Source of the DNA: Sclerotinia nivalis
Taxonomy: Eukaryota > Ascomycota > Leotiomycetes > Helotiales > Sclerotiniaceae
Length of the DNA: 64,000 nucleotides
Direction of reading: 5' to 3'
Assembly (NCBI GenBank): GCA_029531795.1
Contig: JAPEIS010000010.1
Span: 2,356,001 to 2,420,000, forward strand
The notes below the pieces were generated by a model that ran no database searches, had not been told where the DNA came from, and saw nothing but the letters and a program-made list of their open reading frames with translations. The position numbers and the translations under genes are program-made. Of this stretch, positions 52,411-57,550 are shown one piece after another. Each line of letters starts with the position of its first letter. Position 1 is the stretch's first letter.

Positions 52411-54433
52411 ATGGCAAGAAAGGATCATAGGATAATCATACATTTTGTTAGTCAGCTCCATTAGGATCTCTATATCCATGATATTTTCGTAAAGAAACAC
52501 GTCACTCAAAAAGTATCTATTCTAACCGTTGTTTAAGGATTATGACTGCTTTTACGCGTCTGTCTTCGAAAACGAGAATCCTGCGTTAAAATCAGTACCC
52601 TTGGTAAACTCTGAATTCCTCTCTCTGATGTGCGAAACATAGCTGACGCAATGAAAGGCTGTGCAGCAGGTAAGACGCATTTACCAAAGTCAACTCAAAA
52701 TAGTATATCGCAAGTTCTAAGAATGACTTCAGAAACAAATCATCGTCACTTGCAATTATGAAGCTCGGCGCCGTGGTCTTAGTAAATTGCAATTAATCAG
52801 TGAAGCCAAGAAAACCTGTCCAGATGTTGTGATTGTCTTGGGAGAAGAATTGGGCCGATTCCGAGATGCATCAAAAATGCTATACAAACATTTGGAAAAG
52901 TTTAGTTGGTCGGGAAAAGTTGAACGACTAGGATTCGATGAAGTGTTCATGGACGTCACAGATATTGTCGACTACAACCAGAAACTACTGAATCCAAACG
53001 ATTTGACCCACTCGTTCCTCCAACTGGACCGTAATGATCCTACTGCGGGGTTTACCTTTAATGCGACGAGAATTGCTGGTCACGGTTCCCCCGACTTGCA
53101 GCCAGGCGGCGAATTAACCCCTCAATATCTATTGAATTCGGCGACCTCGAATAGTGATGTCGAATTACTTACCCGGTTGATTTTGGGCTCACACCTTGCC
53201 CAGTATTTAAGATTGAGTCTAGAAGAGGAAAAGGGCTACACTTCGACTGTTGGCATATCCACGAACAAACTTTTAAGCAAATTGGTAGGCAACCTTCACA
53301 AACCAAAAGGACAAACAACTCTTCTTCCGCCCTATGAAGTTTTGCCCAATGATGATGGACTACAAAGCAATGTCACAACATTCATTGATAGTCATGATAT
53401 AGGTAAAATACCAGGTATTGGGTTCAAAATGTCTCAACGTATTCGGAACCATGTTCTATCACGTCCGGCCGACTTTGAAAGTGGGCTAATTTATGGTGGC
53501 ACGAAAGAATCTGTTACTGTCCGTGACGTGCGTCTCTTTGCTGGCATTGGTCCTGATGCATTGGAAAACATTCTGGGAGGATCTGGGGCAGAAAGGGGTA
53601 TTGGAGGTAAGGCTTGGGGACTGATGAATGGTCGCGACGATACAGATGTAAAGGATGCTCGAAAGGTACCATCCCAAATATCAATCGAGGATTCATATAT
53701 CAAGCTCGATAATATGTCTCAATTAATGGAAGAGCTTCGAATGCTTGCGACCAGTCTACTCAATAGAATGTATCAAGACCTACTTGAGGACGATGAAGAA
53801 TCTGACGTACCATCAAAAAGATGGATTGCTTACCCCAAAACAATACGACTGTCTACCAGGCCTCGTCTGCCATTGAATGCAGATGGCACAAGAACACGAA
53901 GCTTTAACAGGATATCGAGATCTAAACCTCTCCCGAATTTTGTCTTCAACTTGAAAGATGGCATAGATAGTATTGTCGAGCGACTGATCCAAGATACATT
54001 GGTTCCCATGTTCCGAAAATTGCATCCACAGAGATCGGATTGGAATTTAAGTTTGGTCAACATCGGAGTAACCAATATGGTTGAAGCCGCGAGTGAAGAT
54101 GGATCTAGAGGTGGTAGAAACATTGGTCTTATGTTCAAGCGACAAGAAGCCACTCTCAAAGAATGGAAAGTCGAGGACCGTGATATTCCACCTGACTTCG
54201 TTACAAATAGGTATGAAAAATCTATAAGTGAGCCTATTGAGACAGAGCACATCTCTAATCCCAATCCGGGCTCCGAAGATGTAGTCTACATCTCGCAAGA
54301 TACAGTAGATGAGCAAGATCTTTGGGAGGATGAAGATGAGTTAGGCAGTCGTGAGATCTGTCACGTATGTGGTGCGATGATGCCCGCATTTGCCATGCCA
54401 GCTCATGAACGATTCCACAACCTGGAGGAATGA
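52411..54433 (+). CDS. poli: DNA polymerase iota (Y-family translesion polymerase)
   Basis: Four exons: 52411-52446, 52538-52603, 52658-52669 (12 nt) and 52733-54433, 604 residues. The spliced N-terminus reads IIIHFDYDCFYASV, giving the first catalytic Asp (D13). The joined VPLAVQQKQIIVTCNYEARR contains the fingers motif, and RLGFDEVFMDVT supplies D107 and E108. A helix-hairpin-helix (IGKIPGIGFKMSQRI, then FAGIG) and a little-finger domain follow. The C-terminus is a ubiquitin-binding zinc finger (CHVCG from C581, then HERFH). The YEARRxGL motif and overall order match Pol iota/eta-type enzymes, with Pol iota closest. It copies past DNA lesions when bound to PCNA and ubiquitin. The large open frame alone lacks the first 56 residues, so the small exons are required for function. 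Confidence 0.92.
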
Positions 54434-56232: not shown

Positions 56233-56239
56233 AAAAAAA
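56233..56239 (-). terminator. RNA polymerase III terminator of the tRNA gene
   Basis: A run of seven A on the + strand (seven T on the minus strand) starts 14 nt beyond the 3' end of the tRNA, the normal position and length for a Pol III terminator. Confidence 0.8.
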
Positions 56240-56252
56240 GAATGTACATACA

Positions 56253-56382
56253 TAGCAAGTCCCAGTTTCTAGTCCGAATGTTAGTGTGTATGCTCTTTTG
56301 TCATGTTTGGTGAAGTGAATGCTTACCGATCTGGGGACCTCCGGGTTATGAGCCCGGCGCGCTTCCACTGCGCCAACTTGCT
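56253..56382 (-). tRNA. tRNA-iMet(CAT): Initiator tRNA-Met (CAT) with a 58-nt insertion in the T loop
   Basis: Exon 1 is 56382-56327 (56 nt) and exon 2 is 56268-56253 (16 nt); joined they make a 72-nt tRNA. Acceptor stem AGCAAGT/ACTTGCT, D stem GCGC/GCGC, anticodon stem CCGGG/CCCGG around CTCATAA, and T stem CCCAG/CTGGG all pair without mismatch. Eukaryotic initiator hallmarks are present: the A1:U72 pair, three G:C pairs in the anticodon stem and T loop AUCGAAA (A54, A60). The intervening 56326-56269 begins GTAAGC, has CTAAC with the branch A 12 nt from the end, and finishes ACTAG. This is a fungal spliceosomal intron pattern, not the canonical tRNA intron after position 37. A T-run terminator follows. 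Confidence 0.9.
56269..56326 (-). other. Spliceosomal-type intron inside the tRNA
   Basis: 58 nt between T-loop positions 57 and 58 of the tRNA. On the minus strand the 5' site is ATCG|GTAAGC, the branch-site candidate CTAAC is at 56284-56280, and the 3' site is ACTAG|AAAC. The junction could shift by one base (a G is shared), but only GT-AG fits one of the two options. Length and branch distance are like those of the protein-gene introns in this window. Confidence 0.8.
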
Positions 56383-56827
56383 TTTTCTTATTGATTGCGA
56401 GTTTTGATGCGGTGCGGCTGAGAATTTGGTTAATATTGGAGGAGTGGGGTGGGTGGGTTGGATGAATGGATGGATGGATGTGGGTCACAGCTTGGTTGGG
56501 GGGAGGGGCACTTTTAGACGCAAATTACTCCATGCCTCTGCCAGAGTTGGTTTTGAGTTTAAGACTATTACTATATTAGAGGAGTCTTGGTAATGTTACC
56601 TATGAAATTAAAAGTTTATGGAATTAAAAAATTATTTTCCCAAATATGGGTTCACCAGTTTTGGTCCTGACCTTATTCCTAATGCAGCCATCGTTAGGAA
56701 ATGAGTAATCGATCGCATACCCCTTAATCACCATCCACTATTTTTGCACAATCGACACATCTCTCTTCCTCTACCATTAATCATATTTCCCACACATCAT
56801 TATTGAACCCTCCACCTATTCCCCATC
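56383..56827. other. Intergenic, tRNA upstream and cupin 3' region
   Basis: 445 bp. The first 100 bp, upstream of the tRNA on the minus strand, includes a GGATGGAT-type short repeat (about 56458-56480). No further feature recognised. Confidence 0.5.
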
Positions 56828-57550
56828 CTAATCATACTTTCCACTCAACTTCACCAATCCGGCCTTCTCATTCTCCTCCTTACTCTTCCTCGACCAAACC
56901 GGTGCCTCATCTCTTCCTTCCTCCTCCTCCCTATCACCTTCTTCCTTCGTATGATGCACCGTAGTCGGTGCATGTTCTGCTGGCGAATATATCGTGTATA
57001 GAACTAGTGGTTCTTTTCCTGTATTGACAAATTGGTGTTGAGTGCCTGCTGGTACTACCATCAAGTCACCTTTTTTGACGACTTGGTCTTTGCCGTTGAT
57101 GGTGGCGAGACCAGTGCCGGAGGTAAAGGTTAGTGCTTGGTCGACTGTGTGGACTTCGTCGCCGATGTCGCCGCCGACGGGGATGCTCATTAGGACGACT
57201 TGGGAGTAGAGGCCTGTGTACTGTGGGTGCTGGGTTAGTGACTGTGGTATATGATAGGGAAGGGAGTAGAATGTGGTGGAGAAGCGGGCATGTAGTATAC
57301 ATACGAGAACTCTGCGAAATTCATGGGATGAAGCAGGAAGATCTGAGGTCATTTGAGGGAAATAGACCATATCGTGGGCAGGAGGTGATGAATTGGGTTC
57401 CTTAAATGCCATATTGCGACTTTGGACACTTAATGGGACGGAGATTCTCAATTGCGTTGTTTTCCTACACGTAGAGAGTAGGTTTGAAGTGTATCTTGCG
57501 TTGTGGCTACTTCTGACAAGTATATGGCGAAGTGTTAATGGAAGCATCAT
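56828..57550 (-). CDS. Cupin-domain protein, probably mitochondrial
   Basis: Two exons: 57550-57305 and 57220-56828, with an 84-nt intron, 212 residues. The cupin barrel after the junction reads YTGLYSQVVLMSIPVGGDIG, then EVHTVDQALTFTSGTGLATI and GDLMVVPAGTQHQFVNTG. The metal-binding first motif G(X)5HXH is altered (GDEVHTVDQ has one His and one Glu), while the second keeps H in AGTQHQF. The first 46 residues are Arg/Ser/Leu-rich without acidic residues and look like a mitochondrial presequence; a second ATG (MAFKEPNSSPP) follows it. The C-terminal 50 residues are charged and low-complexity. Similar to small mannose-6-phosphate-isomerase-like cupins; activity unknown. The intron is a multiple of three and stop-free. 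Confidence 0.82.
   Translation of the reverse strand: MMLPLTLRHILVRSSHNARYTSNLLSTCRKTTQLRISVPLSVQSRNMAFKEPNSSPPAHDMVYFPQMTSDLPASSHEFRRVLVCILHARFSTTFYSLPYHIPQSLTQHPQYTGLYSQVVLMSIPVGGDIGDEVHTVDQALTFTSGTGLATINGKDQVVKKGDLMVVPAGTQHQFVNTGKEPLVLYTIYSPAEHAPTTVHHTKEEGDREEEEGRDEAPVWSRKSKEENEKAGLVKLSGKYD

Follow-up and report, generated by a model that had tools for sequence, protein, structure and literature searches.

Of the four initiator tRNA-Met genes found in the host genome, three are best read from their sequence, with a probability of roughly 0.85, as working genes that display a short mRNA-type intron at G57/A58 of the T loop and that would be matured by the spliceosome; since three of the four carry such an intron, some of the initiator tRNA supply probably relies on the mRNA-splicing machinery. 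Introns of tRNAs are the textbook domain of a protein endonuclease, and in the present case the removal of the intron from an essential tRNA seems to have passed to the spliceosome. If true, the arrangement implies (i) a nuclear tRNA whose maturation uses the spliceosome in place of the Sen endonuclease, (ii) a tRNA gene transcribed although its B-box sequence is made complete only by splicing of the RNA, and (iii) an obligatory order, with splicing ahead of T-loop modification and end processing.

The window, i.e., the whole 64-kb stretch of DNA that was analysed (contig C10), contains on its minus strand, at 56382-56253, an initiator tRNA-Met gene in two exons separated by a 58-nt insert. 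Excision of the insert (56326-56269) yields a 72-nt tRNA with the discriminator A73 and with 21/21 stem pairs Watson-Crick, as the preliminary description had claimed in calling the product a perfect initiator tRNA; in addition, the minimum-energy RNA fold predicted for bases 1-71 of the spliced tRNA is the cloverleaf. The excision is ambiguous by one base in this gene, GG..TA or GT..AG, both leading to the same product. The insert starts with GTAAGC, comprises a CTAAC whose branch-like A is followed by 12 nt, and ends in CTAG, so that the splice-like start, CTAAC and closing AG named in the same description are all seen in the window sequence. The features of the locus are the following:

56383..56417, minus strand: CAA-rich leader, probable Pol III start region; 3 CAA, a count that alone is reached by 4% of background.
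56327..56382, minus strand: 5' exon, tRNA positions 1-57, 56 nt, identical (56/56) at four genomic loci; it contains the acceptor 5' strand, D arm, CAU anticodon arm, variable loop, T stem 5' strand and T-loop ATCG.
56322..56332, minus strand: natural B-box position, AGATCG/GTAAG, broken by the intron; -6.6 bits versus 6.4 in the intact copy.
56269..56326, minus strand: spliceosomal-type intron, 58 nt, at G57/A58 in the T loop, with a GTAAGC donor, CTAAC and AG; two paralogous 53-nt inserts occupy the same site elsewhere.
56321..56326, minus strand: donor site GTAAGC, identical in 3/3 introns.
56280..56284, minus strand: branch-point-like CTAAC; counterparts CTAAT (C16) and CTAAC (C7).
56269..56270, minus strand: AG acceptor.
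56253..56268, minus strand: 3' exon, 16 nt, comprising A58-A60, T stem 3' strand, acceptor 3' strand and A73; identical at 4/4 loci.
56233..56239, minus strand: T7 run just 3' of the tRNA, probable Pol III terminator.

Eukaryotic initiator tRNA-Met is marked by a CAU anticodon, an A1-U72 pair, three G-C pairs in the anticodon stem, and A54 and A60 in the T loop. Besides its CAU anticodon, the spliced product displays A1/T72, GGG/CCC at 29-31/39-41 and the T loop ATCGAAA, the A54-U55-C56 stretch being given as a T-loop feature of initiator tRNA in an excerpt of PMC3978253. The two tools applied pass over the split genes: ARAGORN returned no tRNA over the window, Rfam returned no match over the window at the gathering score, and both, as run here, report one of the four initiator genes of the genome. 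The gene is flanked on one side by a DNA polymerase iota-like gene, with a long exon at 52787-54433, and on the other the next larger open reading frame encodes 240 amino acids (56828-57550).

Querying the host genome with the spliced 71-nt sequence disclosed four loci, and a second pattern search returned the same four. One of them, C12:1310678-1310748, aligns along the full 71 bases without interruption; the other three, on C16, C10 (the window gene) and C7, match at bases 1-56 only, and are followed by inserts of 53, 58 and 53 nt, respectively, and then by the common 3' exon. The two further split loci are located at C16:422435 and C7:2457389. The split site is identical at the three loci, T-loop G57/A58, and all inserts read GTAAGC...AG, with CTAAT in C16 and CTAAC in C10 and C7, the branch-like A being followed by 10, 12 and 12 nt. 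The discriminator A73 is common to all four loci. The spliceosomal-type intron proposed from the window gene is thus borne out at two more loci, which combine the same site and the GTAAGC/CTAAY/AG signals with largely unrelated bodies. Likewise, the pseudogene verdict that the preliminary description had attached to several intact initiator genes loses its ground, one of the four copies being intact. The window arrangement did not arise by chance, because two further loci show this tRNA split at the identical position, each by an insert of its own that carries the same splice signals; and since three separate loci carry different inserts, an assembly error as their source is, on the sequences at hand, very unlikely.

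These copy numbers refer to one assembly of 50.3 Mb in 31 contigs. Host proteins match those of Stromatinia cepivora at 96% and 94%, of Sclerotinia sclerotiorum at 93% and of Botrytis or Botryotinia at 77-82%, which places the host in or near the Sclerotiniaceae (Leotiomycetes). No 5.8S rRNA was found above the Rfam cut-off in the whole assembly (best weak match, C2:2566195), so the rDNA may be absent from it. Some contigs have a character of their own: C24 (57,692 bases) and C25 comprise tandem repeats of about 4.48 kb with many GC-rich clusters (C24:1-9500 read), and each repeat carries an organelle-like tRNA, labelled Ala-TGC by ARAGORN (13 matches in C24, 9 in C25), together with a second, weaker tRNA match. 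No Rfam match to rRNA was obtained in C24:1-9500, and both contigs may be of organellar origin or belong to a second organism in the sample. Contig C31 (170,583 bases) displays 28-31% G+C in the pieces read and many tRNAs, and is probably a large mitochondrial genome.

Introns of the U2 type are marked by a GT donor with its consensus extension, a CTRAY-like branch site, an AG acceptor and a length typical of the host, and all four marks are found in the tRNA inserts. When segments of 53 or 58 nt starting with GTAAG, with CTAAY near the end and closing in AG, were sought across the window and four other loci of 9.5-9.9 kb, each on both strands, three of 408,510 segments fitted, exactly the three tRNA introns; in a smaller scan, the introns of C16 and C7 were the two matches among 153,378 segments. 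Furthermore, GT..AG stretches following a T-loop-like NTCR were cut out and the remainder put to ARAGORN: the 269 candidates from 18 sources gave a tRNA in five rows, all from the three split genes.

Spliced alignment of two homologs predicts six mRNA introns in two window genes, of 208, 41 (doubtful), 54, 91, 54 and 63 nt, with the donors GTATGT, GTTAGG, GTAAGC, GTTAGT, GTAAAC and GTAAGA, in the same order. The 53-58 nt length and the GTAAGC donor of the tRNA inserts fit these predictions, one of the six showing the very same donor in an intron of 54 nt. The comparison is a weak yardstick, since the donors vary, two of the six introns lack a YTRAY match, and the sole match in the GTAAGC intron lies 30 nt before its end. 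The textbook signals are clearer in the tRNA inserts than in the predicted mRNA introns of the window.

The transcription of the split genes poses a difficulty for the preferred reading. Type 2 Pol III genes have both A and B boxes intact; here the A-box region lies in the identical exon 1 and the B box is broken, its score in the split genes being a level reached by 5.5% of background positions under a matrix built from 27 tRNAs of the host genome, the intact initiator included. The search for a replacement in C16, C10 and C7 gave best alternatives at the 0.39, 0.22 and 0.20% background level, which over 450 positions per locus is the level of chance. With the B box broken and no convincing substitute found, efficient Pol III transcription of the split genes is not assured. 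The five B-box bases GATCG stay in place, and they may be enough for TFIIIC recruitment.

The surroundings of the genes speak for the same polymerase. The 35-nt leaders contain 4 (C16), 3 (C10) and 4 (C7) CAA, against a background mean of 0.74 (three-locus p about 6e-5) and a mean of 2.5 in 30 other tRNA leaders of the genome. No TATA box near -30 was seen by eye in the split-gene leaders. Downstream, runs of T5, T7 and T4 begin at a distance of 15, 14 and 12 nt from base 72 (C16, C10 and C7, respectively); in the intact C12 gene, a T4 follows at 22 nt. None of the three introns contains a T run above 3, and therefore a Pol III transcript should not terminate inside; the close downstream run with none internal is what a Pol III terminator calls for. 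Taken together, leaders and T runs point to RNA polymerase III on sequence grounds. As a more general observation, a CAA-rich leader, e.g., TCAACAATAACAA, is present in many nuclear tRNA genes of the host fungus.

The broken B box would also suit transcription of the split copies by RNA polymerase II, the usual source of spliceosome substrates, with splicing inside that transcript; this alternative differs from the preferred reading in the polymerase, the splicing being the same. It is unlikely in view of the CAA-rich leaders and nearby T runs, which resemble those of host tRNA genes, and of introns free of T runs above 3.

The comparison of the four loci bears on whether the split copies are alive. 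The four loci agree in every one of the 72 tRNA bases, while 11 of the 12 comparisons of the 150-nt flanks show shuffle-level similarity (p of at least 0.066); only a CAA-rich stretch directly upstream of C12 and C7 stands out (p=0.014, the lowest of the 12). The insert bodies, compared pairwise without the first six and last three bases but with the branch site, gave p=0.002, 0.05 and 0.11, and the whole inserts p=0.04, 0.09 and 0.53; by these values the similarity of the bodies is weak or absent, near background. Because the tRNA bases are identical while flanks and insert bodies diverged, the exons look to be under selection. The pattern fits a single old intron, copied and then diverged, with which it is compatible and of which it is not proof.

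That the three split copies were killed by the insertions, the initiator tRNA coming from C12 only, is distinctly unlikely. The existence of that one intact gene and the broken B box of the others agree with such a loss, but the three copies have kept 72/72 tRNA bases next to diverged flanks and inserts, showing none of the tRNA-base decay against a functional copy by which a pseudogene is recognized. Decay is not expected to spare common splice signals, CAA leaders and terminators, and a rescue by gene conversion would need the copying of a 16-nt exon beside a non-matching intron and flank.

Host tRNA genes for Leu-CAA, Gly-GCC and elongator Met display introns in the anticodon loop, ARAGORN names being unreliable for some of the intron-bearing genes; because these introns are of the ordinary kind, the Sen pathway is likely present. 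Two Gly-GCC genes (L007:1895-2644), which lie about 0.5 kb apart and have a Lys-CTT gene nearby, carry introns of 37 and 36 nt in the anticodon loop. The list of genomic tRNAs is incomplete, because 63 of 2986 Rfam candidates were scored. That the T-loop inserts are ectopic introns cut by Sen, as in Cyanidioschyzon and archaea, is very improbable: excerpts of PMC3978253 do describe noncanonical tRNA introns from some algae and archaea, among them T-arm introns of Crenarchaeota, and many ectopic introns without a defined BHB motif in the Guillardia nucleomorph, but they also present the eukaryotic enzyme as set for position 37/38, and the inserts here sit at 57/58, form 0/4 central-helix pairs of a BHB (2/4 with a one-base left shift) at all three loci, and keep donor, branch and AG in 3/3 cases though Sen does not need such signals.

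Further split tRNAs were sought in other ways. An exact-pattern scan for split initiator tRNA returned none in genome_contigs and none in viral_contigs, collections without fungi as such and hence silent on conservation. A looser pattern without the GT gave five loci in genome_contigs, all bacterial by title, and four in viral_contigs; the latter were rejected as split initiators, as they show no GT continuation and look like bacterial tRNAs. Within the host genome, elongator B boxes cut by GT..CTRAY..AG occurred in 11 rows (seven distinct places) versus 11 in the reversed control, with a pattern that took in GGTTCR boxes only and so leaves room for split tRNAs of other kinds. Excision at these loci yielded no tRNA, and they were rejected.

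Returning to spliceosomal maturation, the most likely history is that an ancestral initiator gene acquired one intron and afterwards gave rise to copies at separate loci, whose introns and flanks diverged by drift. RNA polymerase III would produce a precursor comprising leader, exon 1, intron, exon 2 and U-tail; U1 would bind at GUAAGC, the branch-site protein and U2 at CUAAY, and the spliceosome would join G57 to A58. A normal seven-base T loop would form only after splicing, which should accordingly precede or accompany m1A58 methylation, docking of the D and T loops, end trimming and export. The m1A58 modification is important for the stability of initiator tRNA in yeast. For C10 and C7, folding predicts an unspliced precursor that keeps the cloverleaf, with a T stem able to pair and the intron as a large T-loop bulge; the C16 precursor is predicted to misfold with the T stem unpaired, and the precursor folds did not separate the explanations.

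The uninterrupted C12 copy alone could be sufficient for all initiator tRNA. The chances are even that, with three of the four genes found depending on the spliceosome, the start of all protein synthesis is tied to splicing capacity. The split genes raise the questions of how Pol III would transcribe a tRNA gene whose B box is broken, how the spliceosome would cope with a precursor with such a short 3' exon, and whether the initiator tRNA supply is a possible link between splicing and translation.

Among known systems, the U6 introns of Schizosaccharomyces reportedly, by Frendewey's account of 1990, contain a B-box match; unlike them, the tRNA intron described here breaks the B box, and U6 is itself a part of the spliceosome. 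The likeness lies in a short spliceosomal-type intron within a small Pol III RNA, transcription by Pol III being the probable case here. Excerpts of PMC10484740 describe the mRNA-type intron of fission yeast U6, a Pol III RNA, as thought to stem from reverse splicing near catalytic nucleotides. Unlike the fission yeast gene, the one U6 snRNA gene found in the host (C1:7073134-7073240; 47 of 4675 candidates scored) is uninterrupted.

With the canonical Sen-cut introns, the inserts share their location in a nuclear tRNA gene, and they differ in lying in the T loop instead of the anticodon loop, in their GT-AG and branch signals and in the lack of a BHB. Cyanidioschyzon and the Guillardia nucleomorph likewise carry eukaryotic tRNA genes interrupted outside 37/38, ectopic or permuted, which excerpts of PMC3978253 present as substrates of a BHB-type endonuclease or as having an undefined motif; unlike the genes reported here, they are not described there with donor, branch and acceptor signals. 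An excerpt of a 2026 review (PMC13149111) describes tRNA splicing as spliceosome-independent, and no report of a spliceosomal intron in any tRNA gene was found among the matches listed from the open-access PMC literature.

The rRNA introns of lichen fungi are similar in being ectopic, spliceosomal, fungal and located in a non-coding RNA: according to an excerpt of PMC8527467, such introns occur in nuclear rRNA genes, and one of them (57 bp) was spliced by yeast from a Pol I rRNA transcript. They differ in the RNA, a Pol I rRNA there and a tRNA here, and in the host lineage. Ectopic spliceosomal introns are therefore already known from other non-mRNA genes, and what would be new here is their presence in a tRNA.
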